NCBI GenBank assembly: GCA_023265595.1
Contig: JAHFSU010000009.1
Span: forward strand, 17,135-57,048
Length of the DNA: 39,914 bases
DNA from: Deltaproteobacteria bacterium
GTDB taxonomy: Bacteria; UBA10199; SPLOWO2-01-44-7
Direction: 5' to 3'
The notes under the pieces are model-generated. The model saw only the letters and a list, made by a program, of their open reading frames with translations. It did no database searches and was not told where the DNA came from. The position numbers and the translations under genes are program-made. Below are positions 4,952 to 22,031 of the stretch, in pieces (position 1 is the stretch's first letter; every line of letters starts with the position of its first letter).

Positions 4952-5762
4952 AGCCCCTCGCCTGTTCTGCTTCGGCTTCCAACACCGAAAATTCGGGGAT
5001 GTGGTCGTCCCATTCAATCAGAGTGGAACGGAGTCCGATTGTTCTGATCGTTTCATGATAGAGCTTCCAAACCGGATCGATAATCGGATGGTCGTGTGTG
5101 TCTAAAAGATAATCGCCGTAATCGCTATGACCGGCCAAATGATATTGCCAAACGCGATCTGCCGGAACGTTTTGGATATAAGTTGACGGATCAAACCGGT
5201 GATTCACACTGCTGACATAAATATTATTCACATCCAGTAAAATGCCGCAGTCGGCCCTGTTCGCCACCTCCGTTAAAAATTCCCATTCAGGCATGGTGGC
5301 GTGACGATATTCGATATAGCTCGAGACATTTTCGAGTCCGATGGACCTTCCCAAAAAATCTTGAACCTTTTCGATCCGCTCTACCGTATTGGCAACGGCC
5401 TCTTCGGTGTAGGGGAGCGGCAAGAGATCGTGGGCGTTGTGTCCGCCAAAACCGGTCCAGCAGAGATGATCGGTAATCCACGCCGGCTGAATCCGTTCGG
5501 CCAAACGGCGCAGTTTTTTCAGATAGTCAAAATCGATCTTGTCTGTGGAACCGATCGAAAGAGAGACACCATGCATCACGATCGGATATTTTTCACGGAG
5601 CTTATCCAATACCGCAAGCGGTCTCCCCCCCTCCATCATGTAATTTTCTGAAATAATCTCGAACCAATCGACTTGTGTTTTATTCTCAAGAAGATGGGAA
5701 TAATGGGGTGGACGCAAACCCACCCCAAATCCTAAAAATGGAGACTCTTTAACCTTTAACAA
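4932..5762 (-). CDS. bufB: BufB-type multinuclear non-heme iron-dependent oxidase (MNIO, DUF692)
   Basis: A TIM-barrel iron enzyme that modifies cysteines of the precursor peptide to thiooxazole-type groups in known bufferin systems. Metal-ligand motifs appear in order: GFGVGLRPPHYSH at the start, WFEIISENYM, MHGVSLSIGS, ITDHLCWTG, IGLENVSSYI, LLDVNNIYVSSVNH, YHLAGHSD, DTHDHPI and LIEWDDHIPE. The start is uncertain. The ATG codons at 5888 and 5849 lie inside bufA, so I chose the TTG at 5762, which gives 276 aa, the usual MNIO size, and a 14-base overlap with bufA. Neighbours bufA and bufC confirm the role. The gene is translationally linked at both ends. Confidence 0.88.
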   Translation of the reverse strand: MLKVKESPFLGFGVGLRPPHYSHLLENKTQVDWFEIISENYMMEGGRPLAVLDKLREKYPIVMHGVSLSIGSTDKIDFDYLKKLRRLAERIQPAWITDHLCWTGFGGHNAHDLLPLPYTEEAVANTVERIEKVQDFLGRSIGLENVSSYIEYRHATMPEWEFLTEVANRADCGILLDVNNIYVSSVNHRFDPSTYIQNVPADRVWQYHLAGHSDYGDYLLDTHDHPIIDPVWKLYHETIRTIGLRSTLIEWDDHIPEFSVLEAEAEQARGYAKTAA

Positions 5763-6015
5763 CCTTTCCGCCTTTATCCGTACATTCTTTTTCTGTCTGA
5801 ACGTTTGTCCACCCTTTTCCTTTGCAACCGTTCTTGCCGGCGCAAGCATTCTCTTTGCTGTGACAGGCCCCCTTGCCTTTGCAGGCATTGATTCCTTGGC
5901 ACTTCACTTTTCCTGCATCATCCCCCTTCTTCTCTTCTGCTGCCGACACTTTGCCGGAGGCAAAGAGAGCGGCTACCGTGAGAGCCAATATGGCTCCCGT
6001 CATTTTTTTGTTCAT
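5749..6015 (-). CDS. bufA: bufferin precursor, BufA2-like copper-binding RiPP
   Basis: An 88-aa precursor peptide. Residues 1-25 or so are a Sec signal peptide (MNKKMTGAILALTVAALFASGKVSAAEEKK). The mature part has six cysteines in a regular spacing: CQGINAC, CKGKGAC, CHSKENAC, CAGKNGC and CKGKGW, then a last Cys in KECTDKGG. This Cys/Gly/Lys pattern matches BufA2-type bufferins, periplasmic copper-sequestering peptides modified by BufBC before export. Start 6015 has an AAGGGGG site six bases upstream. A TTGACA/TATTCT promoter precedes it, so this is the first gene of the four-gene operon. The number of modified cysteines cannot be read from the sequence. Confidence 0.86.
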   Translation of the reverse strand: MNKKMTGAILALTVAALFASGKVSAAEEKKGDDAGKVKCQGINACKGKGACHSKENACAGKNGCKGKGWTNVQTEKECTDKGGKVVKG

Positions 6016-6836: not shown

Positions 6837-7520
6837 ATGCTGAAAAATTTTTTTTTAACCATAGGCTTTATTGCGTTGCTTTATTGGCTATTGGCTTATC
6901 AAATTCTTCCAAGATTCTGGCGTGATTTGGAACCGGATCCGAGGTTCAATTCTGAACCGAAAATCACCCATACTAAAGAAGGGATTCCGGGCGATCCGAT
7001 CAATGTGGTTTTGGCCGGCACTCAGGAGGAACTCGTGCAGGCCATGCACAAGGCGGGATGGTTTCCGGCGAATGCGCTGACTTTCAAAACCGCGGCCAAA
7101 ATTGTAAAAAGCGCATTATTCAAAAAACCGTATCCGAAAGCCCCCGTCAGCAACCTCTATTTTTTCGGCCGCAAGGAGGACCTCACCTTTGAGCAACCTG
7201 CGGCGGAAAATATCAAAAAACGGCACCATGTCCGTTTTTGGCAATCCGATACCCGATGGAAAGAGACGAAGCCGGTTTGGCTCGGAGCCGCTACATTTGA
7301 TACAAGCTACGGTTTCAGTCGTTACACCGGCCAGATTTTGCACCATATCGACGCCGATATCGATGCGGAAAGGGGCAAACTCTTTTCTGATCTTGAAAAT
7401 GCAAATGAGATTTTGCTGCGCTATCAAGCAAGCGGCATTGGCCCCACCCTTTCGGGGCGCAACGGCGAAGGCGATCGTTATTACACCGATGGCATGATCG
7501 ATGTCGGCATTTTACGCTGA
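6837..7520 (+). CDS. LssY_C-domain membrane-anchored protein
   Basis: The 227-aa protein has one N-terminal membrane helix (residues 4-24) and then an LssY C-terminal-type domain. Characteristic segments are GDPINVVLAGTQEELVQAMHKAGWFPAN, KAPVSNLYFFGRKEDLTFEQPA, and RHHVRFWQSD followed by PVWLGAATFDTSYGFSRYTGQILHHIDADIDAERGKLFSDL. LssY_C proteins are found next to lipid phosphatases or alone; their biochemical function is not known. The start ATG lies in the second copy of a 10-bp tandem duplication, and no good ribosome binding site is visible. It converges on the PepSY-like gene with 13 bases between stops. Confidence 0.8.
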   Translation: MLKNFFLTIGFIALLYWLLAYQILPRFWRDLEPDPRFNSEPKITHTKEGIPGDPINVVLAGTQEELVQAMHKAGWFPANALTFKTAAKIVKSALFKKPYPKAPVSNLYFFGRKEDLTFEQPAAENIKKRHHVRFWQSDTRWKETKPVWLGAATFDTSYGFSRYTGQILHHIDADIDAERGKLFSDLENANEILLRYQASGIGPTLSGRNGEGDRYYTDGMIDVGILR

Positions 7521-7533
7521 ATGAGGATCCTCT

Positions 7534-7815
7534 TTAGTGAAATTCTTTTTGGATTTTGCCTGTTTTTTTATCGACCTCAAACCAGTTTAAGGTGGCGGTG
7601 TGCCCGTTTTTTATTTCAAAAACATGCACAACCCATGCCGATTGGGAATCGGTTTCATGATCCATTTCAATATGGGCGTTGGGAACTTTTTTTAAATATT
7701 TTTGGACCTCCGGCAACTGACGCACCAAAGCAACCGCTTTTTCCTGTGTCATATCCGCCCCGGAATAAACGACCCAAGAAATCCCGAGACAAAAAAGGAG
7801 AGTAAAAAATTTCAT
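7534..7815 (-). CDS. small secreted PepSY-like protein
   Basis: A 93-aa protein with a signal peptide (MKFFTLLFCLGISWVVYSGA) and a short alpha/beta domain. The mature part, TQEKAVALVRQLPEVQKYLKKVPNAHIEMD followed by WVVHVFEIKNGHTATLNWFEVDKKTGKIQ, has the helix-strand-strand pattern of PepSY/YpeB-like periplasmic inhibitor domains. It is probably periplasmic. There is no clear operon partner. The family is inferred from the pattern of DKKTGKI after a strand pair, so confidence is moderate. Confidence 0.68.
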   Translation of the reverse strand: MKFFTLLFCLGISWVVYSGADMTQEKAVALVRQLPEVQKYLKKVPNAHIEMDHETDSQSAWVVHVFEIKNGHTATLNWFEVDKKTGKIQKEFH

Positions 7816-7878
7816 GATCTAATTATTGCAGAAAGTGGCGCCTGCGCCCGCTTCTGGCGGGGCAGAATTCTGCAACGG

Positions 7879-8292
7879 TTAAAGAACAATGGAATGACTG
7901 TTAGGCCCTGTATAGTATTGAACTTGATGTGCCCATCCTAAAGAGGGAGATTTTCTTCTATCAGCCTCAGTGACTTTTGGTGGCTGGCTAAACTTTGTTT
8001 TACCACAAGATCCGAAAGCGGTCGTTAGCTTTTTCCGATCCACTTCACCGAATAAAGAAGGAACGGCCTTCCTATTTCCAGCTTTATCAACCCGAACTTC
8101 AACGGTGACAAGTTTACGAATCGGTTCGCATTTCAGTAGCTCTCTACTTTTGGCCCAAGCTTTAGCGTTATCATCGACTCCATAAAACCGCCCGTTACCT
8201 GCAAAGGTTGGAACTTCTTCGATACCCAGAAGGTCAACTGAGAACTTATGCAGGTCAACTTTTGTGGAATTTTCTACGCGACCATCTCCCAT
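7879..8292 (-). CDS. hypothetical protein (137 aa)
   Basis: I do not recognise this protein. Start 8292 is fixed by an AAAGGAGA site five bases upstream. The sequence is basic and polar (VDLHKFSVDLLGIEEVPTFAGNGRFYGVDDNAKAWAKSREL, then LVTVEVRVDKAGNRKAVPSLFGEVDRKKLTTAFG). It ends in a Lys/Pro-rich tail (GKTKFSQPPKVTEADRRKSPSLGW). It has no signal peptide and no membrane segment. The good ribosome binding site and a coherent protein composition make it likely to be real. The 230 bases upstream hold a palindromic repeat and no recognisable partner gene. Confidence 0.6.
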   Translation of the reverse strand: MGDGRVENSTKVDLHKFSVDLLGIEEVPTFAGNGRFYGVDDNAKAWAKSRELLKCEPIRKLVTVEVRVDKAGNRKAVPSLFGEVDRKKLTTAFGSCGKTKFSQPPKVTEADRRKSPSLGWAHQVQYYTGPNSHSIVL

Positions 8293-8415
8293 AGAATCTC
8301 CTTTCAACCAATAATTCCCCCACCCCTTTATTAAGCTGGGAGATTTCGCCAGCTATCACTTTGCGTCCCCTAAGGGAACAACAAAGATTGTGCCTGTCGC
8401 CAAAGGGTTCATCTT

Positions 8416-8464
8416 GTCATTCCAGCCCCGTGTCAGAGCACGGGACAGGCTCCGGCGGGAATCC
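8416..8464. repeat. palindromic intergenic repeat
   Basis: Starts GTCATTCC and ends GGGAATCC, enclosing CCCGTG/CACGGG. It is related in form to the repeats at 936-990, 11058-11110 and 31609-31657. It lies between the 7879-8292 gene and the carboxylesterase; I see nothing else in 8293-8526 apart from a weak AACCG/CGGTT hairpin with a T run near 8500-8520. Confidence 0.6.
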
Positions 8465-8526
8465 AAAAGCGCCTTCCTCAACCAGACGGTCTCATTCTCA
8501 AACCGGCATTCGGTTTTTTTGCCTGC

Positions 8527-10251
8527 CTAGGACCCTGGCGCCAAACCCTCATAACCAATTTGGGTATCCCAGAATGTCGTGCACTTATTAAACGGGACAG
8601 CGGTCGTTGTGGAAAGTGTCGGCGAGCAGCCACTCCCGGAACAACCAAACTGTATGTATGTGCCTCCATTGGTAAATAAGGGCCATATCACACCACCGGC
8701 TACGCCAGGATCAAGGTTCTTGGTAAAATTCCCCCAAAAATCCTGCATGGCATTGGCCACAGTCTGTTGTGAAGTATTGAGGGTCTGCAGGAGCACATCC
8801 GGAATGGGCGGTCCCGTATTGACCAGTGGGACACTGTTGAAGAGAAATGCAAGATCATCACCGTGACATGCCGCACTTTGACACGCTAAACAAACCGCAC
8901 CCGTACAACTAGGGTCAGTTGATGTATTCCAGTTTATGTTATCATTGGGGACTTCCGGAAAAATGTAAATAAAAACAGAACTGGATGCCTTGCTCGCAAG
9001 GTATCGCGCCGGACAGCCAAACAGATAATCTGTCTCCACAAGCTGATACTGCGTAATGTTGTTTCCGCCAGAGGTTGGGATGTAGGGTGATGTGGCTAGC
9101 ACCTTGGCCGCATCGGTCGCACCAAACAGGTCGGTAACCTTTTGTTCGTACTCTGTGCTGGACAACGTGGTTGCATTGATATTTTCGGCCACGAAGAGAT
9201 TCCCTTCGCTTTGCACGTTCCCAATAACCGCCGGCATGTTCAGCAGTCCCGCCGATGCCCCTGCAATGGCCTGTCGGACAAGAAAGCTGTCATCGACAAT
9301 CGGAAAGAAGGAACCTGCCGCCGATTGTGCTGTCAAAATGCTTGCAATCGATGCGGACTGCAGGCAGCTTAACGCAGAACCGGCACTTATTCCCGGGCAT
9401 ACTGACGTCAAAAAAGTATTGGTCAAAGTTGTAACAGCCGCACTCCCGGAAGCATTGAGCTTACTTCCCAAAAGATTACTCTGGCTCATGATCGCCCTAA
9501 AATAGGGTGTCGTTGGTCGGCTTGAGGGGATCGATAGCGCATGTGCGGTCACTGAAATAGCCCCTGCGCTCCATCCAAAAAGGGTAACCTTGTCGGGATC
9601 GCCGCCGAAATTGGCAATATTGTCTTGTACCCACTGCATGGCAAGTTGCTGGTCTTTCAGGCCCATGTTGCCACGAATGCCATCGGCGGCATCATACAAA
9701 AAGCCCAATGCACCGAGACGATAGTTGATCGAAACTACCACCACTTTTTCACGCGCGGCCAGCATTTCACCATCCCAGCCATTGATCCCGCTCCCGTGCC
9801 GAACATATTGTCCCCCGTGGATCCAAAACATGACCGGAATATGATTTGAGATTGTGGCAGTCTCCGGTCTCCAGATGTTCAGAGTAAGGCAGTCCTCACT
9901 GGTGCCATTGACCGGTTGGAAAAAGGCAGGAACAGATCCGGACTGGGGACAAATCGGGCTGAATTGGGTGGTATTAATGGTACCTGCGGATTTGGGATAT
10001 GCTTCTGGCGGCATAAAGCGCAAGCCACCGGTCGGTGCCTTGGCATAGGGAATGCCAAGGTAGGCATAAACAATTGCAGTGTTAGATAATGAAACACCTG
10101 CTGACAAGGTTAGGCTTTTGCCACAAACAGGCCCGCTCGTGGTCGCAACGGTCGCTATATTACAAGATGAAGAAGTTGTGCCACAGGCCATGCCGCATAG
10201 AGACAATAAAAAAAGACCTGCTATCTTATACATGAGTTTACCGCTTCTCAT
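8527..10251 (-). CDS. secreted type-B carboxylesterase
   Basis: A 574-aa alpha/beta-hydrolase of the cholinesterase/carboxylesterase family. After a signal peptide (KIAGLFLLSLCGMACG, possibly a weak lipobox) come IVYAYLGIPYAKAPTGGLRFMPP, the EDCLTLNIWRP signature, the oxyanion GGQYVRHGS region and the nucleophile elbow FGWSAGAIS with Ser near residue 228. The catalytic His is probably in CHGDDLAFLF near residue 463. Start 10251 has GAGG six bases upstream; a later ATG at 10233 is possible. The protein has many Ser/Thr and several Cys pairs, typical of exported enzymes. The substrate cannot be told. It is a single-gene unit. Confidence 0.9.
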   Translation of the reverse strand: MRSGKLMYKIAGLFLLSLCGMACGTTSSSCNIATVATTSGPVCGKSLTLSAGVSLSNTAIVYAYLGIPYAKAPTGGLRFMPPEAYPKSAGTINTTQFSPICPQSGSVPAFFQPVNGTSEDCLTLNIWRPETATISNHIPVMFWIHGGQYVRHGSGINGWDGEMLAAREKVVVVSINYRLGALGFLYDAADGIRGNMGLKDQQLAMQWVQDNIANFGGDPDKVTLFGWSAGAISVTAHALSIPSSRPTTPYFRAIMSQSNLLGSKLNASGSAAVTTLTNTFLTSVCPGISAGSALSCLQSASIASILTAQSAAGSFFPIVDDSFLVRQAIAGASAGLLNMPAVIGNVQSEGNLFVAENINATTLSSTEYEQKVTDLFGATDAAKVLATSPYIPTSGGNNITQYQLVETDYLFGCPARYLASKASSSVFIYIFPEVPNDNINWNTSTDPSCTGAVCLACQSAACHGDDLAFLFNSVPLVNTGPPIPDVLLQTLNTSQQTVANAMQDFWGNFTKNLDPGVAGGVIWPLFTNGGTYIQFGCSGSGCSPTLSTTTAVPFNKCTTFWDTQIGYEGLAPGS

Positions 10252-10365
10252 GACAATCCTCGCACATAATGAAAATCCCAATGCATTGTATGATTTCGGG
10301 CCCATTGTAGATGTGAAAATGCACTAAAAGGGGGATTTTGCATTGGCGATGTAAAAATTACAACA

Positions 10366-10653
10366 TTAAACAGGTTTTTTGGGTGCCAGATCACGATGGC
10401 GATTTGTCGTGATAATACTTTTTCCTTCTAACTGCGCTGTCTCTTGTAAAAAAATCTTGAACCCATCGACAGCGGTTACTTCCTGCAAACCGTCCACGTG
10501 CATTTTAAGATTATGAAACATCTCATGTTGTTTGGCTTTGATTTTAGCGTCTTCGAAAGTTTTGGCGGCGACAAAAACATTGATGTGAGATTCAAAGGCA
10601 CCGTCACAAAGAGAGGGATCATAATAACCGCAATGCACAAGAAAGAGTTTCAT
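10366..10653 (-). CDS. DUF1543 domain protein
   Basis: A 95-aa cytoplasmic protein. The start MKLFLVHCGYYDPSLCDGAFESHINVFVAAKTFEDAKIKAKQ and the later LKMHVDGLQEVTAVDGFKIFL match the DUF1543 pattern, a small ferredoxin-like fold of unknown function. Start 10653 has GGAGG six bases upstream. It lies just downstream of the two tRNA genes on the same strand, so read-through from their promoter is possible. Confidence 0.8.
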   Translation of the reverse strand: MKLFLVHCGYYDPSLCDGAFESHINVFVAAKTFEDAKIKAKQHEMFHNLKMHVDGLQEVTAVDGFKIFLQETAQLEGKSIITTNRHRDLAPKKPV

Positions 10654-10684
10654 GGATAACCTCCATTTTTCTTGCAAAAAATTG

Positions 10685-10757
10685 CGTCCCCTACCGGATT
10701 CGAACCGGTGTGTCCGCCGTGAAAGGGCGGTGTCCTAGGCCTCTAGACGAAGGGGAC
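10685..10757 (-). tRNA. tRNA-Glu (UUC)
   Basis: Read on the minus strand, a 7-bp acceptor stem GTCCCCT/AGGGGAC, a D arm, an anticodon loop with TTC in CCCTTTCACGG, and a T arm with GGTTCGAATCC are complete. CCA is not encoded. It lies downstream of tRNA-Lys on the same strand. Confidence 0.95.
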
Positions 10758-10766
10758 GAAAATTTT

Positions 10767-10865
10767 CCCGATACACGATATTCGATACACGAGGAACGAA
10801 ATTTTGCGTCAGCTTTCGCATACCGTGTATCGTATATCGGGACAAATTTTGCTGACGCAAAATTT
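10767..10865. repeat. inverted repeats between the two tRNA genes
   Basis: Two inverted pairs are present. A perfect 15-bp pair AAATTTTGCGTCAGC (10799-10813) and GCTGACGCAAAATTT (10851-10865) flanks the second arm of CCCGATACACGATA (10767-10780), whose near-complement is at 10828-10841. The tRNA-Lys end lies two bases past the right arm. Confidence 0.65.
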
Positions 10866-10866
10866 G

Positions 10867-10939
10867 TGAGGCGCCCGGGGCTCGAACCCGGGACCCTTTC
10901 CTTAAAAGGGAAATGCTCTACCAGCTGAGCTAGCGCCTC
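10867..10939 (-). tRNA. tRNA-Lys (UUU)
   Basis: Minus-strand cloverleaf with acceptor stem GAGGCGC/GCGCCTC, D arm TAGCTCAGCTGGTAGAGC, anticodon TTT in the loop CTTTTAA, and T arm GGGTTCGAGCCC. CCA is not encoded. It is the first gene of a two-tRNA transcript. Confidence 0.95.
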
Positions 10940-10979
10940 TTAATTTAAAAAATTCGGGTAATCAAAAAAGTCGCGGCAC

Positions 10980-11006
10980 AGTATAAAAGGGGCTTATTTA
11001 TGTCAA
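10980..11006 (-). promoter_or_regulatory. promoter of the tRNA-Lys/tRNA-Glu unit
   Basis: Minus-strand TTGACA (11001-11006) and TATACT (10980-10985) are separated by 15 bases, about 40 bases before the tRNA-Lys 5' end. Confidence 0.6.
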
Positions 11007-11042
11007 CATGACTTTAAAAATTTCCCTATCGATAAGCTTTTA

Positions 11043-11132
11043 GGTAGTGGGTCAGTTTGTTATTCCTGCGAAAGCAGGAATCCATGGATCCCCGCTTTCG
11101 CGGGGATGACATCGGCAAACTGTTCCACTACC
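11043..11132. repeat. nested palindromic element upstream of typA
   Basis: Outer arms GGTAGTGG (11043-11050) and CCACTACC (11125-11132), then CAGTTTG/CAAACTG, enclose two hairpins: ATTCCTGC-GAAA-GCAGGAAT and ATCCCCGC-TTTC-GCGGGGAT. The inner block (11058-11110) belongs to the dispersed repeat type seen elsewhere in the window. It ends about 60 bases before the typA start. Confidence 0.75.
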
Positions 11133-11191
11133 ATTTTTTAAAATCTCTTGCATATCTCCTGTATTTCCCGTAGTTGGGGCCCCCATTGTTT

Positions 11192-12994
11192 ATGAAAAGT
11201 GCTCGAAATAAAAATGTCCGTAATATCGCCATCATCGCCCATGTCGATCATGGCAAAACGACGCTGGTCGATTTTATGCTCCGCCAGTCTGGCACCTTTA
11301 GAGTCAATCAGGCTGTCGACGAGCGGGTGATGGATAGCATGGATTTGGAGAGGGAGCGGGGCATTACGATTGCCTCCAAAAATTGTTCGATTGAATGGAA
11401 AGGGGTCAAAATCAACATCATCGACACCCCCGGCCACTCCGATTTCGGCGGTGAAGTGGAGCGCGGCTTGAAAATGGTCGATGGAGCCATTCTGTTGGTC
11501 GACGCCTCGGAGGGGCCTCTCCCCCAAACCCGATTCGTTCTCAAAAAAGCGTTGGAGGCCCGACTTAAAATTGTTGTCCTCATCAACAAAATCGACCGGA
11601 AAGATGCCCGCCCTCAAGAGGTCATCGATGCGATTTACAGCCTCTTCATCGATCTCGATGCCGATGATGCCCAGATCGAATTTCCGATTTTGTACGCCAT
11701 CGGCCGTGAAGGGATCGCTCAAAAAAAATTGAATGAAAAAGGAAAAGACCTCTCCCCTCTTTTTGAAACGATTCTGGAAGAAATCCCGCCGCCGAGTTAT
11801 CATCCCCAAGAGCCCTTTCAAATGTTGGTGACCAATCTCTCCTATTCCGATTATGTCGGCCGCCTTGCGATCGGCCGTGTCTTTAACGGAAGCGCCAAAA
11901 TCAGCGACAATCTGGTTTGCATCGGCAAAGATCAGACACCAAGACCGTTACGTGTCTCCAGTCTGCAAGTTTATGAAGGGATTCGTCTGCAAGAGGCCGA
12001 AAAAGTGGAGCCGGGTGACATCATCATTCTCTCCGGCATTGAAGAGGTCGAAATCGGCGATACAATCTGCACGCTGGAATCGCCCAAAGCTTTGAAGCGG
12101 ATCACGGTGGATGAACCGACCATTTCGATGAAATTCATGATCAACACCTCCCCTTTTTCGGGTCGCGATGGAAAAATCGTCCAGTCCCGAAAAATCATCG
12201 AGCGTTTGCAAAAGGAGACGCTGCACAACGTGGCGCTTCGCGTGGAAATGGGAGAGGGTTCCGAGAGTTTTGTGGTCAAGGGCCGCGGTGAATTTCAGAT
12301 GGCCATTTTGGTTGAAACGATGCGCCGCGAAGGTTTTGAATTGGCGATCGGCCGCCCGCAGGTGATCACAAAAGAAAAAAATGGAGTACAACTGGAGCCG
12401 ATCGAACATCTCTTCATCGATTGCCACGAGGAATTCATCGGCATCATCACCGAAAAACTGGCACTCAGACAAGGGCGGATGATCAACATGGTCAATCACG
12501 GATCGGGCCGCGTGCGGCTCGAGTTTTCAATCCCAAGCCGCGGTTTGATCGGTTATCGGAGCCAATTTTTGACCGACACCCGCGGGATGGGACTGATGAA
12601 TTCCTATCTGCTCGGTTATGAGCCCTATCGAGGCGATGTCAGAGCCCGCACCAGCGGTGCGCTGGTTTGCGATCGGCAGGGGACTTCGGTCGCCTATGCC
12701 CTCTTCCATCTGGAGCCTCGCGGCACCTTGTTTGTTGCGCCGGGAGTTCCCGTCTATGAAGGGATGATCGTCGGCGAACACAACCGTGAAAACGATCTCG
12801 ATGTGAACCCCACTAAAGAGAAAAAACTCTCCAATATGCGAGCCGCCGGAAAAGACGAAAACATTATTTTGAGTCCCGTATTGCCCATAACGCTCGAACG
12901 CGCGATCGAATTTATCAAAGACGATGAACAGATTGAAGTGACCCCCAAAAACATCCGATTGCGTAAAAATATTTTACAGGCTAACCTCCGCTGA
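11192..12994 (+). CDS. typA: translational GTPase TypA/BipA
   Basis: A 600-aa ribosome-binding GTPase of the EF-G superfamily, involved in 50S assembly and stress adaptation. Motifs in order: RNIAIIAHVDHGKTTL (G1), ERGITIASKNC (G2), DTPGHSDFGGEVER (G3), LINKIDR (G4), and the C-terminal SRGLIGYRSQFLTDTRGMG and TNSYLL-like block that is characteristic of TypA. The length is normal. ATG 11192 is chosen; a TTG at 11174 gives only a poor extension. It runs into the DEAD-box gene with two bases between, so the two are co-transcribed. Both act on ribosomes or RNA, which suggests a shared role in ribosome maturation. Confidence 0.97.
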   Translation: MKSARNKNVRNIAIIAHVDHGKTTLVDFMLRQSGTFRVNQAVDERVMDSMDLERERGITIASKNCSIEWKGVKINIIDTPGHSDFGGEVERGLKMVDGAILLVDASEGPLPQTRFVLKKALEARLKIVVLINKIDRKDARPQEVIDAIYSLFIDLDADDAQIEFPILYAIGREGIAQKKLNEKGKDLSPLFETILEEIPPPSYHPQEPFQMLVTNLSYSDYVGRLAIGRVFNGSAKISDNLVCIGKDQTPRPLRVSSLQVYEGIRLQEAEKVEPGDIIILSGIEEVEIGDTICTLESPKALKRITVDEPTISMKFMINTSPFSGRDGKIVQSRKIIERLQKETLHNVALRVEMGEGSESFVVKGRGEFQMAILVETMRREGFELAIGRPQVITKEKNGVQLEPIEHLFIDCHEEFIGIITEKLALRQGRMINMVNHGSGRVRLEFSIPSRGLIGYRSQFLTDTRGMGLMNSYLLGYEPYRGDVRARTSGALVCDRQGTSVAYALFHLEPRGTLFVAPGVPVYEGMIVGEHNRENDLDVNPTKEKKLSNMRAAGKDENIILSPVLPITLERAIEFIKDDEQIEVTPKNIRLRKNILQANLR

Positions 12995-12996
12995 AT

Positions 12997-14196
12997 ATGA
13001 CAACCGACTCTTTTCACAATCTCGGCATTTCACACGAAATTTTGACGATTTTGGATCAGCTTCATTTTAAAACCCCAACCCCGATCCAACATCAATCGAT
13101 CCCGGCGGGGCTGGCAGGGAAAGATATCATCGGCATTGCTCAAACCGGCACTGGCAAAACCTTGGCCTTCGGAATTCCGATGGTACAACGTTTGCAAACC
13201 ATTGCCGGACGCGGGCTTATCTTGCTTCCGACCCGTGAATTGGCGCTGCAGGTCAATGAGATGATCCAAAAAATTGCAAGATCGTTCGGGATTTCGAGCA
13301 CCGTTTTGATCGGCGGCGAATCGATGTTTCATCAAATCAATGCGCTAAGGCGTCGTCCCCGCATTTTGGTAGCCACCCCCGGCCGTCTCATCGATCATAT
13401 GCAACAAAAATTTGTCACATTGGAGGAGGTCAGCATTCTGGTGTTGGACGAAGCCGACCGAATGTTTGATATGGGCTTTGCGCCGCAAATTAATCAGATC
13501 ATTCGACGCCTACCGACCGATCGTCAAACATTGCTTTATTCCGCCACCATGCCCCATGCGATTGTCAACATTGCAACCGCCCACATGAAACTGCCGGTTC
13601 GAGTGGAGGTGGCCCCTTCGGGAACGGCCGCGGAAAATGTGGAACATGAGATTATTGTCGTTGAAAAAGAGGCAAAGCAGCCCTTGTTGGAGACGGTGTT
13701 GCGCGAAAATCAGGGGACCGTGCTCGTTTTCTCGCGAACCAAAATTGGGGCCAGAAAGATTTGCCGCAATCTGAATTTCAAAGGGTATCGGGCGGGAGAA
13801 ATTCATGCCGACCGTTCACAAGCCCAGAGAAAACAGGCATTGGCCGGTTTTAAAAATGGCCGCTATCGGATTTTAGTGGCAACCGACATCGCCGCACGCG
13901 GCATCGATGTCAAAGATATCGCCCTCGTAATCAATTTCGATTTGCCCGACAATTCTGAAGATTATGTCCATCGCATCGGTCGCACCGGCCGCGCCGGCCG
14001 TGAAGGGAAGGCCATCTCGTTTGCAACCCCCGATCAAAAATGGGATGTGAGAGATATCGAAAAATTAATTCGGAAGACTTTAAAGATTGTCTCTCTCCCC
14101 GGCTCTTCGAGTTTTATAGAACACGCCGCTAAACCGGCATCCCGCACCCGAAGCTTTAGGCCAAGACGCGGTTCCCGCTTTCGGAAATTTCGGTAA
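12997..14196 (+). CDS. DEAD-box RNA helicase (RhlE-type)
   Basis: A 399-aa ATP-dependent RNA helicase. Visible motifs are the Q motif region PTPIQHQSIP, AQTGTGKT (I), PTRELALQ (Ia), TPGR (Ib), VLDEADRMFDMGF (II), YSATMP (III), VFSRTK, ATDIAARGIDVK (V) and HRIGRTGRAGREG (VI). The C-terminal tail (about 370-399) is Ser/Arg-rich and basic (SFRPRRGSRFRKFR), typical of RhlE-like proteins that bind RNA non-specifically. It is the second gene of a typA operon, and the two-base spacing implies coupled translation. The exact subfamily (RhlE, DbpA or CsdA) cannot be fixed by eye, but the short tail without a dsRNA-binding module favours RhlE. Confidence 0.94.
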   Translation: MTTDSFHNLGISHEILTILDQLHFKTPTPIQHQSIPAGLAGKDIIGIAQTGTGKTLAFGIPMVQRLQTIAGRGLILLPTRELALQVNEMIQKIARSFGISSTVLIGGESMFHQINALRRRPRILVATPGRLIDHMQQKFVTLEEVSILVLDEADRMFDMGFAPQINQIIRRLPTDRQTLLYSATMPHAIVNIATAHMKLPVRVEVAPSGTAAENVEHEIIVVEKEAKQPLLETVLRENQGTVLVFSRTKIGARKICRNLNFKGYRAGEIHADRSQAQRKQALAGFKNGRYRILVATDIAARGIDVKDIALVINFDLPDNSEDYVHRIGRTGRAGREGKAISFATPDQKWDVRDIEKLIRKTLKIVSLPGSSSFIEHAAKPASRTRSFRPRRGSRFRKFR

Positions 14197-14221
14197 AAAT
14201 CAAGGGGCTGTTTAAAAAGTG

Positions 14222-14599
14222 TCACTTGGTGCCTGGCACCATAGGTTTGGATTGAGGCATCTGCATAAGGATCCAAAATATTTTTTGCAGATAGCAGGAA
14301 TTGATGCGATTTTCGAGACTACGAAGTCTTTCCACACATTGAAGCAATTCTGAATCACCATAACGACTGTTGGATGAAGCACTGGCGCTTTGGCTCGGAT
14401 TGATAATGCCCGCATCGAGCAACGGTTCTTCTGTTTCAGGGAGCGTATCGAGGCAGGCATTCAATTCAAGGGTCAAAACAAATTCACGTTCATGACATAC
14501 TTCTATGGGGGACTGGGAGCACCTTCTTGTGGAACAAGTGGCCGAAGGCGGCACCGGAACGGACCCCCCGCTAATGCGCTTTGCGCTAGCGTTTGCCAT
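14222..14599 (-). CDS. short hypothetical protein next to doxX
   Basis: A 125-aa frame that starts ten bases after the DoxX stop codon. I do not recognise it. Residues 38-125 read like real coding sequence (FVLTLELNACLDTLPETEEPLLDAGIINPSQS, then LLQCVERLRSLENRINSCYLQKIFWILM), while the first 30 residues are Ser/Pro/Cys-rich and less convincing. No ribosome binding site is seen. The last codons and the stop come from a GGTGCC/GGCACC palindrome at 14228-14240, which may mean the original C-terminus was replaced. It may be a gene fragment. Confidence 0.42.
   Translation of the reverse strand: MANASAKRISGGSVPVPPSATCSTRRCSQSPIEVCHEREFVLTLELNACLDTLPETEEPLLDAGIINPSQSASASSNSRYGDSELLQCVERLRSLENRINSCYLQKIFWILMQMPQSKPMVPGTK
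14228..14240. repeat. GGTGCC-T-GGCACC palindrome
   Basis: A perfect 6-bp inverted repeat with a one-base centre, lying just downstream of the helicase gene and overlapping the end of the convergent short gene. It could be a small terminator-like or repeat element. Confidence 0.5.
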
Positions 14600-14609
14600 T
14601 GATTACTTA

Positions 14610-15071
14610 TTACACAATTTTTTCTTTTTTGGAAAGAAAAAAATTGTGAAAAAGATGGTCGAGCGAAAATTGTCCCGGTCCAAACAACAAAACGACCCAT
14701 GAGGCGTAAAGGAATAGAAAAGGGGCCTGTTCAAAAAAAGTGTCCGGATCCCTGAAAAGATTAAAGGTCGCCTCGGCATGGGCCGTAAACAGGGCAGTCA
14801 ATAGAACCACAATTAAAGGGATGGAAACAAGACGGGCAAAAAAACCGACCAACAAAAGCAATCCCCCGATCATTTCAATAGAGCCGACGAGATAGGCGTT
14901 GAATGTGGGGAGCGGTATGCCCAAATCGGTGAAAAACTGGATCGGCTTTTGGATATGGGAAAGTTTTCCGAGGCCGGCCTGAAAAAACTGCCACCCCCAA
15001 TAGAGTCTTAAAATCAGGATAAAAATGCTCTGAAAAAAATTAAGCATTTTGGCCATAAAGCGTTTTCGCAT
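14610..15071 (-). CDS. DoxX family membrane protein
   Basis: A 153-aa inner-membrane protein with four predicted helices. The DoxX pattern is clear: LILRLYWGWQFFQAGLGKL, then GIPLPTFNAYLVGSIEMIGGLLLLVGFFARLVSIPLIVVLLTALFTAH, and a final helix FLFLYASWVVLLFGPGQFSLDHLF. DoxX-type proteins are linked to quinone-dependent redox processes and often sit in bufferin or MNIO loci, but this one is more than 8 kb from the buf operon here. The start could also be ATG 15056. The last codons form an A/T-rich inverted repeat (14613-14648), which may serve as terminator. Confidence 0.88.
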   Translation of the reverse strand: MRKRFMAKMLNFFQSIFILILRLYWGWQFFQAGLGKLSHIQKPIQFFTDLGIPLPTFNAYLVGSIEMIGGLLLLVGFFARLVSIPLIVVLLTALFTAHAEATFNLFRDPDTFFEQAPFLFLYASWVVLLFGPGQFSLDHLFHNFFLSKKEKIV

Positions 15072-15114
15072 ATTTCAAAATGTACTTCAACTTAAATGTT
15101 GACGACAAAGGCGA

Positions 15115-15120
15115 TATAAT
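15115..15120 (+). promoter_or_regulatory. candidate -10 box for the 15147 gene
   Basis: TATAAT lies 26 bases before the start codon. The -35 region is weak (TTAAAT at the right distance), so this is tentative. Confidence 0.4.
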
Positions 15121-15146
15121 GCTCTAGAACATCCGGGACACTCTTC

Positions 15147-16301
15147 ATGCCACAAACACCGGTTAACAAAGCATCTCCAAGCGATCCCGTATCCGTAAAG
15201 CTTATGAACGGCATGGCGCATCGCGGGTTGTTTTTGGATCCGAATGTTGCCAAGGCCATTTCTGCTCATTGGAATACTCCCGTGGAACAATCCGTTTTAC
15301 TCGACAAAAATCGTATTCGAAATTTTTCTCCCCTATTTGCAGAATTTGAAGATCGTTATTTAGAGGCGGTTGCCGATGTTTTTAATGAAAAATTTGTCAA
15401 GCCTACTGAAAAATATCGTGTCTCTTCGGCATGGCCCCTTACGTTACCGTTGCCGATGGCTGTCCCGGGTATAGCCGAGTTCCTTTTCCCTCTTTTCGGC
15501 GCCGCTTCTGCGGTCAGCGTCGATGTGCTGTTGGAAACGGGGCTTCGCAAGGAATTCGGCGGCATAGAGGAACATCTGGCCGCCGTGGAACGGGCGCAAG
15601 GGAGGACACTTGTTTTTGAAATCGATCGAAACCCTATGGCTGTGGTCCAGATAAGAGGAGAGGTCTCTCCAACAACGACTACAGCCTCAACAACTCCATC
15701 CGCTTCACCCGAAGACCCAGATCCTTTGGCAACGTGGATACGCCGTGTAAATGATTTTCTCCGAAAGGCCAGAGGGAATAACAAGAAGCGTGCAAAGACT
15801 TTGCTAAAGGAGTTGAGAACACTTCAGAGGGAGATAAAAACCGGAAGAAAGCTCTCCAAAGACGAAGTGAGAAGCTGGAGACAAAGAGTATCGATCACCT
15901 GCCGAAATCATACAACCCGCTCTCCTCGTGCCCTCAAAAGAGCGGAAGCAATACAAAAGATGAAGGCAAATCCCCTCCTGCAGGCGGAAATTGAATTGAG
16001 AGAAGAAAAACTCCAAGCGCTTCAAACCAAAATTACAAATGCTAGGGTTAAAGGTCTTTTTCGCTCGTATCTGAACGAATTACTGAACAAACCCCAGAGG
16101 GCTTTACAAAATCCGAAGACTTTTCATTCAACCACTGCTTGGCAAAAATGGGATGCCCAATTGGAACAACTGGAGAGGGATCTTCCTCAAATCATTCCAA
16201 TTGTCGAAGCAGAATGTCGCGATTTTTATGAAAGCACGGAAGGAAGAGAGCCGTTAACCAGTGCAAGACTGGCACTAATCGTTGCCAGAAAAATGAAGTG
16301 A
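15147..16301 (+). CDS. hypothetical protein (384 aa), coiled-coil C-terminal half
   Basis: I do not recognise this protein. Residues 1-170 include a globular part (RYLEAVADVFNEKF, AWPLTLPLPMAVPGIAEFLFPLFGAASAVSVDVLLETGLRKEF). A Thr/Ser/Pro linker (TTTTASTTPSASPEDPDP) follows at about 175-193. The remainder is highly charged and helical, with Lys/Arg/Glu-rich stretches likely to form coiled coils (LREEKLQALQTKITNARVKGLF). There is no signal peptide. A hydrophobic patch near 100-125 could be one membrane segment. The ribosome binding site is weak. The gene is monocistronic, divergent from doxX and convergent with the subtilase frame. The function is unknown. Confidence 0.7.
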   Translation: MPQTPVNKASPSDPVSVKLMNGMAHRGLFLDPNVAKAISAHWNTPVEQSVLLDKNRIRNFSPLFAEFEDRYLEAVADVFNEKFVKPTEKYRVSSAWPLTLPLPMAVPGIAEFLFPLFGAASAVSVDVLLETGLRKEFGGIEEHLAAVERAQGRTLVFEIDRNPMAVVQIRGEVSPTTTTASTTPSASPEDPDPLATWIRRVNDFLRKARGNNKKRAKTLLKELRTLQREIKTGRKLSKDEVRSWRQRVSITCRNHTTRSPRALKRAEAIQKMKANPLLQAEIELREEKLQALQTKITNARVKGLFRSYLNELLNKPQRALQNPKTFHSTTAWQKWDAQLEQLERDLPQIIPIVEAECRDFYESTEGREPLTSARLALIVARKMK

Positions 16302-16339
16302 TCTGCGAATCACCTTACAAATGGGCCAGTAAGGCGAAG

Positions 16340-19300
16340 TCAGGAATAAGGCAAACTAAGAGACAGAAACAAAGCGGTAAGGTCTACAAAATGAAGGTAA
16401 TCGCTTGAGCTAAGCATCAGTCTGGTACCATCGTTGGACATTATATATTGATTCAACAGCGATTTATTTTGTATGTTGATCAGGGGTACATTGATTGCCA
16501 AAATGGCTTTGGTTGCTCGATTTAAAATATGGGCAACCCCTTTATTACTAATTAAAATTGCGTAGGTATGTGACGGGTCGAACACAATGCCGACGGCAGT
16601 CGAAAAATTCCAATCCGGGATGCCGGCTCCGTAAGTTCCTTGCTGAACTAAATTCAAATCAAAAATGGAATCAACAGACCACAGTTCTCGGGCTGTTTCC
16701 GCTACACCCAAAATTTTCTTATTAATCCGACTGGCAGATATTTTTTCGAACTCTCCCCCCTCAAGCGCATGATAAACAGCTGTGGCAGCACCGGAATAAG
16801 GATTATTATTTCCCATGTTTAAAACGATGTATTCTCTGTTTTGTGAACGGAATAAGGAATCGTACCCGGAGTAAAAATTGCTACTCAAGGCCGATGGCAG
16901 CGAGATAAAGGCACCGGTATTTAGATCGACTAATTTGAGTCCATAATCCGTCCCCACTAATCCTTTTCTTCCCTTTCCAAGGAAAAAAGAATCGGTTGCA
17001 TAAGGTATGACAGACAAGTTCAAGGTAGATCCATTCAAATCACTGATTCCTCCGATACCTGCAAGATTAAAAAGAGTCATACGATTGGCATAGTAGTTGT
17101 TGAAAAACCCCAAAAGGGTACCATCGGCGGTAATATCCCATGCATAAAGATTGGCAAAGGAGGCATAAGCGGTCGTTAAAAATTTATTATCAGGTATTGA
17201 TAAAATTCTTAATCTTCGATCCGTAGAGTCTTCAATGTAGACAAATTGCCGCAACGGATCGTAAATCATTCGCCATGGATTTGTCACTGCAAAATTCTGA
17301 AGATAGGGAATTTGTACTTCAAATTCTTTGGCTGTTGAAAATGAAGTAAAAGAAGAAAAATTATCAGGCGCATATAAAATGGAAAGTCCCTCTTTGATTT
17401 TACAACCGAATTGATTCGCATGCACTTTTAACACGGTGTGAGACACCGTTTCAAAGGGAAGGCTAAAATTGTAACCACACTCACTGAACCATACCCGCCT
17501 AACGTTTTCCATATTCAGTCCCCTGATTGTTATATCCGTCCCAATGGGTAAACTTTTGGGACCCGATTCAACAATATAAGGAGTGCCCGTTCCCCCCACC
17601 GCAACGGCCGCAGAAAAACTGGAAGATAGGGTGATTTGTTCCTTTCCACGTTGAATCAATATTGTGGAGAGATCAATAGAGACAATTTGGTTGACCTGAA
17701 ATGTCCCTCGCAAATAACTATTCTGCCGTATCGACGCTTCGTTCAAATTAAAGGATCCGGAAGTGGCAACATAGGTAGCGGTCATTTGGGCATTGCTACT
17801 ACCAAAATTTTTTCCTTCATATATCACAAGAAAACCTTCGTCCGGATTGAATCCATACAAACCGTCTGCCCCCAATGGAACTGTTTCTCCCACAAATAAA
17901 TGTTTGAACGGCATAAAGAGTGCAAACATTTTTGTCCGATCCAAGTTAATGGTTATGGAAACAGCCCACCCATCCTGAAAAAAAATCTGGCCTTGCTCTT
18001 TCGACAAATCCAGAGAAGTTAACAGATTAACGGGCGCATTTTGGGCTGCCGGAGAATTCGTAGAGCCACTGGAGACCTTTTCATCCGTTTTGGGGGGTTC
18101 ATTGCTTTGGGCGGGGGCATTCCCGCCCCCATTGCCACTCCCACCGCAACCGGACAAAACAAATAAAGCGAACACAATCAAACCAAACTTCCCAGAACCT
18201 TTTTTTACTCTCAAAATAAATAACAGAGTGGATGTAACAAAAATGAAAAATAAAAAAGAGACCAACGGATTTAAAAACGCGTTTTGTGAAAGGAAGGAAC
18301 ACCCTCCCGCAACCGGTTCCAGTGGATCATTAGAAACACCGCCAACGGAATTTTCGTTAGACGGATTAGCAATAAGAGTTTCTTGCAATCCTCCTCTTTT
18401 TGCCGTCTTGCTGTTCGTTATCCCAAAATTTTCCGCATCCGTCACACCACCGTCATAAGCGATCTCTGGCACGGCCTCTAAAGAGGTCAATAACTCGCGG
18501 CTGTTAAAATCATAACCGCTCGAAACAAAGTCGTCATACCGAATAGCCCTATCGACATTGAGCTTTCCATAGCCCAGACGATTATTGGGAATAGGCGTAA
18601 TCCCCACCGCCAGTCCGCTATCTGCTGTTAAAAAGAGTCTCCTTTTAATATTATCGGCCGGTAATAATCTGTTCCGTTCCAATAAAAGCGCAATAGCCCC
18701 CGTAACATGCGGTGCCGCCATGCTCGTTCCCGCCAAAGAGACGAAAGAAGAGGTTCGCGGCCAGTTTTGGGACACAAATTTTTCTTGAGCGGAAGAGGAC
18801 ATCGCAGAGAGAACCCATTCGCCGGGCGCCGCAATTTCCGGTTTCTGGCCCGTCAATGTCGGGTCCACAGTGGGACCGACGCTGCTAAAGGAAGAGACCT
18901 CTCCAATAACTAATGACGCGATATCCGGCAACCAGCCGGTCAATCCACTGATATTATCAAAATTATTTCTGCTGGAATAAGAGGCGACCGCCAAAACCTT
19001 GGACGCCGTTGCCGGAACATCAACAGTCCTCTGACTGTCACCGGATTGATAAGTGAATCCTGTGTGATTCAAGGTGCCCGTTCGTTTTGTAAAGGCGCCT
19101 CCCAAGGCAATCCAAGCATCAAAATGACCCCTCCCTTCAACGATCAAATCAAACACATATTTAGAGGCAGCAACAGCGACCCCATCATTCCCTTGGGAGG
19201 CTACAATATAAACCAGAGTGTGTTTCTTGCCATTCAATGGGTTTTGTATTTCTGAAGAATCAATCAACACATTTAATTGTCCGTCGGCGGTCGCAAAGTC

Positions 19301-20572
19301 GGTTGTTCCCGCTTGCGAAACCATGGGGCTCTTTTGATAATTTTTATAATCGTCAACACCAATACCAAAGGAAAGATGGCTATCGGCGGGCTGCCAAATA
19401 TCGATAATCAAGGAATGAAGCCATGTTGCTTGGCTAACGAACTCAACGGCCTTTGTCTCATCCTGTAAAGGGAATCCCGCATGAACACTGGCAAAATAAC
19501 TTCCGGAAATATTCGTTTCATTACCGGCGGCAACAACAATGCTTTGACCCGGCGCTCCTGTGACCAAGTTATTTAAAGCTTGTTCAAAAAGGGAAGTGCT
19601 ATCATGCGGACCAAAGTGGGTTCCCAAACTTAAATTGATAACGGCCGGCATGCCCAAGGCAGATGCCTTCTGGAAAATATAGTTAACGCCGTCAACAACA
19701 TGATTTGAAAAGCTTTGCAGAAGACCGGTATTATAAGTGTAATCACCGGCCACCCCTTCGGCTTCCGGAATTTTTACTGCAATGATCTCTGCATCCGGGG
19801 CAATGCCCTTGAAAGTTCTGTCACCGCCGGCGGCAATGCCGGCGACATGAGTTCCATGCCCCCCTCGATCCCTTGAAGGACATAAACCAGAACCCTCCAT
19901 ATCCAAGTCGCGCTCATCACATTCCAGACCATAAGTATTGGCAATTTCACGTGGAGCGGTGAAACCTCCGGAAGGGGACAAACTCTGGTCCCAAATAAAT
20001 TTCACGCGAGATCCATTGATTCCCTCTTTAAAAGTAGAATGTTGCCAATCAATGCCTGTATCGACAATACCAACAATAACACCCCTACCCGTATAGCTGC
20101 GGCTCAAATTAGTTCCATTGTGTACTTGGTCCGCACCGATGAGAGTTCTACTGACATTCAAATTTGTTTTTACAGGTTGGGCTAATTCAACATACACAAC
20201 ACCCTTTACATTTTTCAAAGCAGACACGATGTCCAGCGGTATTTGGGCTGTGACAATGTCGCCGATGACGGAGTTGATTTTGCCTGAATTATTTTGCAAG
20301 AAACTGCGGAGTTCCTCGAGATCCCGAGTTTTTATAAAAACACCCACCGTTGTATTATTGTCCGTCTGCTCTGCATTGGATTTACCAACTCTGCGACTCT
20401 TTTTTAGAGGACTTGCCCCACCGGCAAGTCTCATTAGGATTTTCAAGTTCGGATCTAAAACCTGCGCATGAGAAGCGAACAAAGGGATGGAAATAAACGA
20501 AATCCCAATAATGGTGAGGAGGGGCCACATGCCTTGGAAAATTCTTATCCTTTTTTTTGATATCGTTTTCAT
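16340..20572 (-). CDS. subtilisin-like serine protease joined in frame to a lipoprotein with IPT and beta-propeller-like regions
   Basis: A 1410-codon frame with two parts. Part one, residues 1 to about 789: signal peptide, propeptide-like region, then an S8 peptidase domain with Asp171 (VDTGID), His239 (GGHGTH) and Ser617 (GTSMAAPH) in place, and a C-terminal GGCSF (Cys758), membrane helix and basic tail, which looks like a complete protein end. Part two, from about 784: FGLIVFALFVLSGCGG, a textbook lipoprotein signal with lipobox LSGC, then a Ser/Pro linker, an IPT-like region (GTDITIRGLNMENVRRVWF) and repeated beta-propeller-like strands. An A7 run (18200-18206) sits at the join. Start 20572 has GGGGGA seven bases upstream. 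It may be a true fusion or two genes joined by a frame change. Confidence 0.85.
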   Translation of the reverse strand: MKTISKKRIRIFQGMWPLLTIIGISFISIPLFASHAQVLDPNLKILMRLAGGASPLKKSRRVGKSNAEQTDNNTTVGVFIKTRDLEELRSFLQNNSGKINSVIGDIVTAQIPLDIVSALKNVKGVVYVELAQPVKTNLNVSRTLIGADQVHNGTNLSRSYTGRGVIVGIVDTGIDWQHSTFKEGINGSRVKFIWDQSLSPSGGFTAPREIANTYGLECDERDLDMEGSGLCPSRDRGGHGTHVAGIAAGGDRTFKGIAPDAEIIAVKIPEAEGVAGDYTYNTGLLQSFSNHVVDGVNYIFQKASALGMPAVINLSLGTHFGPHDSTSLFEQALNNLVTGAPGQSIVVAAGNETNISGSYFASVHAGFPLQDETKAVEFVSQATWLHSLIIDIWQPADSHLSFGIGVDDYKNYQKSPMVSQAGTTDFATADGQLNVLIDSSEIQNPLNGKKHTLVYIVASQGNDGVAVAASKYVFDLIVEGRGHFDAWIALGGAFTKRTGTLNHTGFTYQSGDSQRTVDVPATASKVLAVASYSSRNNFDNISGLTGWLPDIASLVIGEVSSFSSVGPTVDPTLTGQKPEIAAPGEWVLSAMSSSAQEKFVSQNWPRTSSFVSLAGTSMAAPHVTGAIALLLERNRLLPADNIKRRLFLTADSGLAVGITPIPNNRLGYGKLNVDRAIRYDDFVSSGYDFNSRELLTSLEAVPEIAYDGGVTDAENFGITNSKTAKRGGLQETLIANPSNENSVGGVSNDPLEPVAGGCSFLSQNAFLNPLVSFLFFIFVTSTLLFILRVKKGSGKFGLIVFALFVLSGCGGSGNGGGNAPAQSNEPPKTDEKVSSGSTNSPAAQNAPVNLLTSLDLSKEQGQIFFQDGWAVSITINLDRTKMFALFMPFKHLFVGETVPLGADGLYGFNPDEGFLVIYEGKNFGSSNAQMTATYVATSGSFNLNEASIRQNSYLRGTFQVNQIVSIDLSTILIQRGKEQITLSSSFSAAVAVGGTGTPYIVESGPKSLPIGTDITIRGLNMENVRRVWFSECGYNFSLPFETVSHTVLKVHANQFGCKIKEGLSILYAPDNFSSFTSFSTAKEFEVQIPYLQNFAVTNPWRMIYDPLRQFVYIEDSTDRRLRILSIPDNKFLTTAYASFANLYAWDITADGTLLGFFNNYYANRMTLFNLAGIGGISDLNGSTLNLSVIPYATDSFFLGKGRKGLVGTDYGLKLVDLNTGAFISLPSALSSNFYSGYDSLFRSQNREYIVLNMGNNNPYSGAATAVYHALEGGEFEKISASRINKKILGVAETARELWSVDSIFDLNLVQQGTYGAGIPDWNFSTAVGIVFDPSHTYAILISNKGVAHILNRATKAILAINVPLINIQNKSLLNQYIMSNDGTRLMLSSSDYLHFVDLTALFLSLSLPYS

Positions 20573-20796
20573 TTGTCGATCCCCCATTCCATTTTGTGAG
20601 AGTTAAGAAAAAATTGCGTCTGCCGGTTGGGGTGCAAATGGAATGCCAACTTTGAAATTTTTATTGACTTAGGATTTACTTTAAGAAATCAATGTAACTT
20701 ACCGATCTAGTTTGATTCTAAAATGTAAAAATTTTGATTCGCGGAATCTCTGCCTCGCAGCAAAAGAAAAAAAGCACAATTTGAGAACACACTGTA

Positions 20797-21975
20797 CTAT
20801 TTTGAAGACACTTTTTTGATGGATCCCCTGAGGAGGATAAATAAAACAGCAACAAAAAAGAATGAGGCCGACAAAAACGGGGCACTCATCCCTAAATTGT
20901 CATAGAGGAATCCTGCTAAAATAGGCCCCAACATCCGGGCAAGACTTCCGGCCGACTGATAGATTCCCATTGTCAGCCCTTGGACGCTCTTGCCTGCCCC
21001 TTTTGAAACAAGACTGGAGAGAGACGGGCTCACAATCGAATAGCCGATGACATAGACGAGCATAGAGAGAACAAAAGGTTTTAAATAAGGGACAAACGAG
21101 GCCGATACAAGACCGGGTATCATAATTAGAGTTCCAACCAGAACAAGCCGCATCTCCCCTGCCTGCTTTGCCAATCTGCCGATCGCCCCTCCTTGAATAA
21201 TGGCCATCATCAAGGCCATGCCGGCAAGAATTAACCCCGCATTCATTGCGCCGAGTCCAAAACGGGCCAAAATAAAATAGGCAAAACTCGTCTCCATTTG
21301 CGCCATGCCGAAAGTCACCAGAAAAAAAAGAAGAATAGGAATACCGGTCGACTCCTCTGCGAGGGTCATCCGCCACTGCTTCCATGTGAAACGAGCCCGA
21401 TGTTCGCGACGCAAATTTTCAGGCAATTCGGGTTCTTTGAGAAAAAAAACGGCAAAGAGCCAATTGGCCAGCGCCAAAGCGGCTACTGCAAAGGCGACTG
21501 TTCCATATCCCCATTTTGAAAGGACCCCACCCAGCGCAGGACCGAAAAGAAAGCCGAGACCAAATGCGGCACCGATCATCCCCATCCCTTTTGTTCGCTC
21601 TTCCGGTGGGGTCACGTCGGCGATGTAGGCTTGGGCGGTGGAAATATTGGCGCCGAAAAAACCGGCCAAAAGACGCCCTGCAAAAAGCCAAAAAAGAGAC
21701 CGGGCGAAACCGAGAAGGAGCATTGAAGAGGCGATACCGGCGATGCAGGTCAAAAGGACGGGGCGGCGTCCCATCCTGTCGGAGAATCGCCCCCAAAATG
21801 GAGAAAAAAGAAATTGCATCCCCGAATAACTCATCATCAAAAAACCGAGCAGGGTGGCTGAGGCCCCAAACGACTTCGCATAGTAAGGGAGGATCGGAAT
21901 CATCATCCCAAAACCGATGAGGTCGATGAAAACGACTAAAAAAATGGTGAGGAGTGCTTTTTTCTTAGCTTGCAT
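20797..21975 (-). CDS. MFS multidrug/tetracycline-type exporter
   Basis: A 392-aa, 12-helix major facilitator transporter of the DHA1 group. The N-terminal IFLVVFIDLIGFGMMIPILPYYAKSFGA and the loop 2-3 motif GRFSDRMGRRPVLL are diagnostic of TetA/Bmr-like drug:proton antiporters. Motif C in helix 5 (GAAFGLGFLFGPALGG) is the antiporter signature. Start 21975 precedes the first membrane helix and has a modest GGGA site. The substrate is unknown. It stands alone, with 210 bases of intergenic DNA downstream before the subtilase promoter side, in which I see no gene. There is no adjacent regulator. Confidence 0.92.
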   Translation of the reverse strand: MQAKKKALLTIFLVVFIDLIGFGMMIPILPYYAKSFGASATLLGFLMMSYSGMQFLFSPFWGRFSDRMGRRPVLLTCIAGIASSMLLLGFARSLFWLFAGRLLAGFFGANISTAQAYIADVTPPEERTKGMGMIGAAFGLGFLFGPALGGVLSKWGYGTVAFAVAALALANWLFAVFFLKEPELPENLRREHRARFTWKQWRMTLAEESTGIPILLFFLVTFGMAQMETSFAYFILARFGLGAMNAGLILAGMALMMAIIQGGAIGRLAKQAGEMRLVLVGTLIMIPGLVSASFVPYLKPFVLSMLVYVIGYSIVSPSLSSLVSKGAGKSVQGLTMGIYQSAGSLARMLGPILAGFLYDNLGMSAPFLSASFFFVAVLFILLRGSIKKVSSK

Positions 21976-22031
21976 GAAGGTCCCTTTTATCTTAAAGACA
22001 CAAAAAATCAAACCCTTTAAAAGGAGAGTTT

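Follow-up and report, generated by a model that had tools for sequence, protein, structure and literature searches.

A conserved subtilase-lipoprotein gene fusion with two membrane signals in tandem at its junction

Does a reading frame that runs from a protease into a lipoprotein represent one gene, two overlapping genes or a slippage site, and what could a lipobox do in the middle of a long protein? The frame in question lies in the window, by which we mean the whole stretch of 39,914 nucleotides analysed here from a Deltaproteobacteria bacterium of the phylum UBA10199. The preliminary description of this locus left three options open, a real fusion, overlapping genes and a slippage site at a run of seven adenines (A7); evidence from a relative, genome G019, upholds the fusion and speaks against the other two. 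Taken as a whole, the best explanation, to which we give a probability of roughly 0.6, is that protease and lipoprotein are genuinely fused in one gene, whose frame is translated straight through with no slippage, and that its product is a hairpin precursor which would be freed into two anchored products.

The fused gene and the anatomy of its junction

Frame reading of the minus strand of the window revealed an ATG start followed by 1415 codons with zero internal stops (Table 1), and the codon preference learned from other window genes favoured the same frame before and after A7. The first half is a member of Peptidase S8, its PF00082 match scoring 146.8 bits against a Pfam cut-off of 21.8, and the catalytic triad (D176, H244 and S622) is invariant between the window protein and its G019 homologue.

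Table 1. Features of the fused gene, with window coordinates.
Feature	Position	Strand	Basis or remark
Single fused gene: secreted subtilase, C-terminal sorting-type anchor and lipoprotein	16340..20587	-	1415 aa; frame conserved in G019
N-terminal Sec signal peptide, residues 1-41 (approximate)	20465..20587	-	Predicted; hydropathy maximum (residues 23-39) following KKRIRIF
Subtilase (Peptidase_S8) domain, residues about 166-684	18536..20092	-	Pfam PF00082, 1.1e-42
Cys763 in GGCS, the invariant cysteine of a MYXO-CTERM-like C-terminal anchor	18299..18301	-	Equivalent Cys in nearly all inspected stand-alone relatives
TM1, residues 775-792, normally the protease's last helix	18212..18265	-	Hydropathy and relatives
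A7 run coding two lysines, incidental	18200..18206	-	T7 on the + strand; A4 at the same place in G019
Basic loop RVKKGSGK, residues 793-800, serving the protease anchor as basic tail and the lipoprotein signal as n-region	18188..18211	-	Translation and relatives
TM2, the lipoprotein h-region ending LSG, residues 801-813	18149..18187	-	Hydropathy; aligns with the G021 N-terminal signal
Lipobox Cys814	18146..18148	-	Invariant in the window, G019 and G021
TIG-like domain, residues about 1003-1080	17348..17581	-	PF01833; E 0.1 in the window, below threshold; best value among the three homologues 1.7e-5
C-terminal 330 or so residues, perhaps beta-propeller-like	16340..17335	-	Aligned with G021, absent from G019; fold prediction with AlphaFold, pLDDT 36

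The translation confirms that the protease end described earlier (GGCSF, helix, RVKK) runs directly into the lipoprotein signal GSGKFGLIVFALFVLSGCGG, with hydropathy peaks at residues 775-792 and 801-817. The order Cys763, TM1 and RVKK is that by which MYXO-CTERM signals are defined, namely Cys, TM helix and basic tail (PMC11980579); about 620 residues follow this anchor in frame, which places it away from the extreme C-terminus. What comes after it has the order of a signal handled by Lgt and LspA, with a basic n-region (RVKKGSGK), a hydrophobic stretch (FGLIVFALFV) and LSGC followed by Gly, and it is homologous to, and aligns with, the N-terminal signal of a lipoprotein in genome G021. Whereas an ordinary lipoprotein signal is N-terminal, this one is internal in both the window protein (residues 793-814) and its G019 counterpart, and in the former it sits about 800 residues in, behind another TM helix. 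Among the loci scanned for a basic-TM-lipobox arrangement midway in a long frame, only the window gene and its G019 relative had it. It is this tandem of two membrane signals that is notable at the junction, not the homopolymer.

The lipoprotein half is less readily classified. Apart from the sub-threshold TIG-like match no Pfam family was found in it, a PDB profile search with it yielded nothing credible, and its predicted structure, computed by AlphaFold from three sequences, reached a pLDDT of only 36, too low to establish a fold.

Relatives and the history of the fusion

A search of 60 genomes with the lipoprotein half recovered homologues in two besides the window's own, and a profile search of 385 genomes recovered two fused cases, those of the window and of G019. 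A contig scan with the single fused protein as query returned nothing, and the hits of a second contig scan were all distant proteases of other phyla, none of them fused. The 385-genome search also gave a 182-aa putative lipoprotein in G037, a weak match (E 1e-4 over 40 positions) that was left unused since it may be mere signal-peptide likeness.

G019 belongs to the same phylum and class as the window's genome and to a different family. Its protease and lipoprotein are fused in one open frame of 987 codons (...SGCSVSGATKINVWPFLLPLLFIIGKFVFRRKFLGVLILTVFLCSCGSS...), the product is 41% identical overall to the window protein, and its junction has the same succession of TM helix, basic loop, TM helix and lipobox (SGCSVSGATKINVWPFLLPLLFIIGKFVFRRK then FLGVLILTVFLCSCGSSG; lipobox LCSC). 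The DNA there has A4 only, which excludes the homopolymer from the conserved junction. A relative with a continuous frame and a conserved junction lacking the homopolymer was what the preliminary description had named as a refuting result, and G019 is such a relative. In G021 the lipoprotein half stands alone behind an ordinary N-terminal signal (MQSLCSLFRNSILSLILLTPFLLSAC), which aligned to the window's internal signal, and the protease of that genome sits on another contig. Sequence comparison thus shows a continuous frame, a conserved fusion and homologous signals, together with the presence of the enzymes considered below.

The stand-alone subtilases of the phylum (G011, G016, G026 and others) share both the protease and its Cys-TM-basic end with the fused gene, but they finish at the anchor, with no lipoprotein following in frame. 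Over a dozen genomes encode such proteases, nearly all of which end 1-16 residues past the TM core, so that the Cys-TM-basic anchor is their normal C-terminus; nearly all those inspected have a Cys ahead of the final TM helix, usually flanked as (G/S)C(S/T). In a maximum-likelihood tree the two fused proteases grouped as sisters with 100/100 support, sharing a long stem branch and apart from the stand-alone ones, for which reason a single fusion event seems the simplest account of these sequences. Occurrence is patchy: in G001, from the same genus, the flanking helicase and MFS transporter genes are present and the fused gene is absent between them. This absence, and the count of only two fused cases in 385 genomes, weigh against the best explanation.

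Several observations concern the surroundings of these genes. Within the genus, what separates the DEAD-box helicase from the MFS transporter varies (G001 C7 versus window 12997-22011), G001 having a sodium:alanine symporter-like gene there. At 6968-12001 of the G019 locus, a very large secreted-protein gene (over 1670 codons) follows within 10 bases 3' of the fused gene, which suggests an operon; the window gene has no neighbour like it. A protease paralogue at G016:C22:61149-63188 carries one in-frame TAA and is possibly a decaying copy. Elsewhere in the window, 4932-5888 encodes a protein of the MbnB/TglH/ChrH family (PF05114, 2.5e-112), an enzyme that modifies RiPP precursors, and a small peptide pathway nearby is possible, and 34514-37549 encodes, from a TTG start, a 1011-aa protein with thrombospondin type 3 repeats that is probably a large surface protein.

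The homopolymer and alternative starts

The preliminary description had drawn attention to A7, and its reading of the letters holds: T7 on the + strand is A7 on the coding strand, and removal of one A gives the frame VKKVLGSLV* with TGA at 18180-18178 of the minus strand. As a sequence the run is unremarkable, because AAAAAAA had 73 overlapping matches on both window strands against 58 +/- 11 expected from dinucleotide shuffles, and the fused gene itself contains two 8-base runs elsewhere (17978 and 20551).

Homopolymers are common sites of sequencing error, and a true count of A6, misassembled as A7, would split the locus into two overlapping or adjacent genes, the first with the plausible protease end VKKVLGSLV*. 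The lipoprotein frame, however, would then lack any ATG, GTG or TTG from which a charged n-region could be read, the sole remaining candidate being TTG 18181 inside the hydrophobic core. The single continuous frame of G019, which has the same fusion and no such homopolymer, strongly disfavours A6, and we regard an assembly error as very unlikely.

Programmed or transcriptional slippage, which would yield a short, sorted protease alongside the long fusion product, has in its favour that GT-A AAA AAA-GGT is placed in register for a -1 slip, the common type, and that loss of an A produces the short end. A -1 slip at A7, however, produces the tail KKRFWEVW... rather than VLGSLV*, so that the short end requires +1 or the loss of an A; moreover, the run is no rarer than chance predicts, and G019, with A4 in the same frame, shows no conservation of a slippery sequence at this place. 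Slippage is accordingly a most improbable source of two products.

A third possibility is that a separate lipoprotein is started internally on the same message. The TTG start suggested earlier does exist in frame, although at 18214-18212 and not at 18213-18215, one base away, and it would yield a textbook lipoprotein signal (MRVKKGSGKFGLIVFALFVLSGC). Against its use, no purine-rich ribosome site was seen by eye just upstream (ACTCTGTTATTTATT), and G019 has no in-frame ATG, GTG or TTG ahead of its second helix except a GTG before TM1. An internal start therefore appears highly improbable.

A predicted hairpin precursor and the enzymes that could process it

Returning to the fusion, the gene probably gives rise to two products, each with its own anchor; the topology, both cuts and the final location of the products are predicted from the junction anatomy and the enzymes present. 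The C-terminal sorting-type signal of the subtilase (GGCS, helix and basic tail) would have lost its stop codon and continued into a lipoprotein signal peptide. The N-terminal signal peptide would export the precursor, leaving the protease outside; TM1 would return to the cytoplasm, the loop RVKKGSGK would lie inside, and TM2 would cross out again to present the lipobox LSGC at the outer face of the inner membrane. Once Lgt and signal peptidase II had acted there, the second half would be released as an ordinary lipoprotein beginning with Cys814. As for the protease half, it would either be held in the membrane by TM1 or itself be lipidated at Cys763 and cut by the myxosortase-type protease of the phylum, for which the remaining tail (TM1, loop and TM2) would be terminal again once signal peptidase II had cut. 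Two envelope proteins would in this way be delivered in equal amounts by one gene. The earlier remark that a lipobox in mid-protein would make little sense is answered by the hairpin.

The enzymes that this model calls upon are encoded in the window's own genome. It has LspA and two Lgt proteins, and its CPBP protein on G000:C16, in which the EExxxR and HxxxN motifs are visible, scored 116.4 bits with Mrt_core (NF040914) against a cut-off of 100, which assigns it to the myxosortase family. The fused protein resembles the MYXO-CTERM/myxosortase system (TraA and MrtX of Myxococcus xanthus; PMC11980579) in its invariant Cys, TM helix and basic tail and in the company of a Mrt_core CPBP protease, but its anchor is not terminal, a lipoprotein coming after it, and, with E values up to 10 allowed, the isolated tails hit no NCBIfam model, the curated MYXO-CTERM one (TIGR03901) included, although short models of this kind may slip past HMMER filters. 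This missing match counts against the best explanation, and processing at Cys763 is accordingly proposed by analogy.

On these sequences the processing model is likely. The fullest form of it, put forward tentatively and with rather less than an even chance, is a bacterial surface polyprotein whose Cys sorting signal and lipoprotein signal have a single cytoplasmic basic loop in common; myxosortase and signal peptidase II would each cut one arm of the hairpin, and the halves would be lipidated at opposite ends (C-terminal Cys763 and N-terminal Cys814). It is also conceivable that the fusion is real and remains unprocessed, as a two-domain envelope protein on an uncleaved TM hairpin whose lipobox is a relic, given that the fusion itself is well supported and the processing of the fused protein only predicted. 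Against this stand the retention of Cys814 and a usable lipobox (LSGC, and LCSC in G019) between proteins about 41% identical overall, the normal lipoprotein signal of the G021 homologue, and the LspA and Lgt of the genome; we consider this alternative unlikely.

A literature search for internal lipoboxes yielded nothing useful. The Bradyrhizobium FbcH cytochrome b/c1 precursor offers a parallel, in that signal peptidase I cuts one polypeptide at an internal signal sequence into two envelope proteins, a cut that in the fused protein is only predicted. The two proteins are unrelated, however, and FbcH depends on signal peptidase I instead of a lipobox and has no C-terminal sorting-type signal.

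The neighbourhood of the myxosortase-type gene is an observation of its own. In the window's own genome lspA, an lgt paralogue and the CPBP gene form a cluster (G000:C16:20386-22294) with equivalents in 37 other genomes. Of the 43 genomes of the phylum that have either gene, 38 carry the lgt paralogue immediately upstream of the Mrt-type CPBP gene. lspA stands just before that lgt in six genomes, these being the ones where lspA was also searched, and most genomes have a second lgt elsewhere. A motif check of nine Mrt_core loci from other phyla found no lgt-like frame flanking them, and we found no mention of an lgt-myxosortase neighbourhood in the literature searched. The acyltransferase of the myxosortase pathway has been stated to be unidentified, with Lgt named as the leading candidate (PMC11980579); the neighbourhood seen here supports Lgt in this role and points to a dedicated paralogue.

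The fused gene is a variant arrangement of known sorting signals, new as a variant, and with it a suspected sequencing or slippage oddity becomes a testable case of a bacterial polyprotein. The lgt paralogue provides a concrete candidate acyltransferase partner for Cys-type C-terminal sorting. Two distinct lipid-linked proteolytic systems, each working on one arm of a single hairpin, may split one translation product into two envelope proteins, and if this is true, a C-terminal sorting signal of the Cys type does not have to sit at the terminus.
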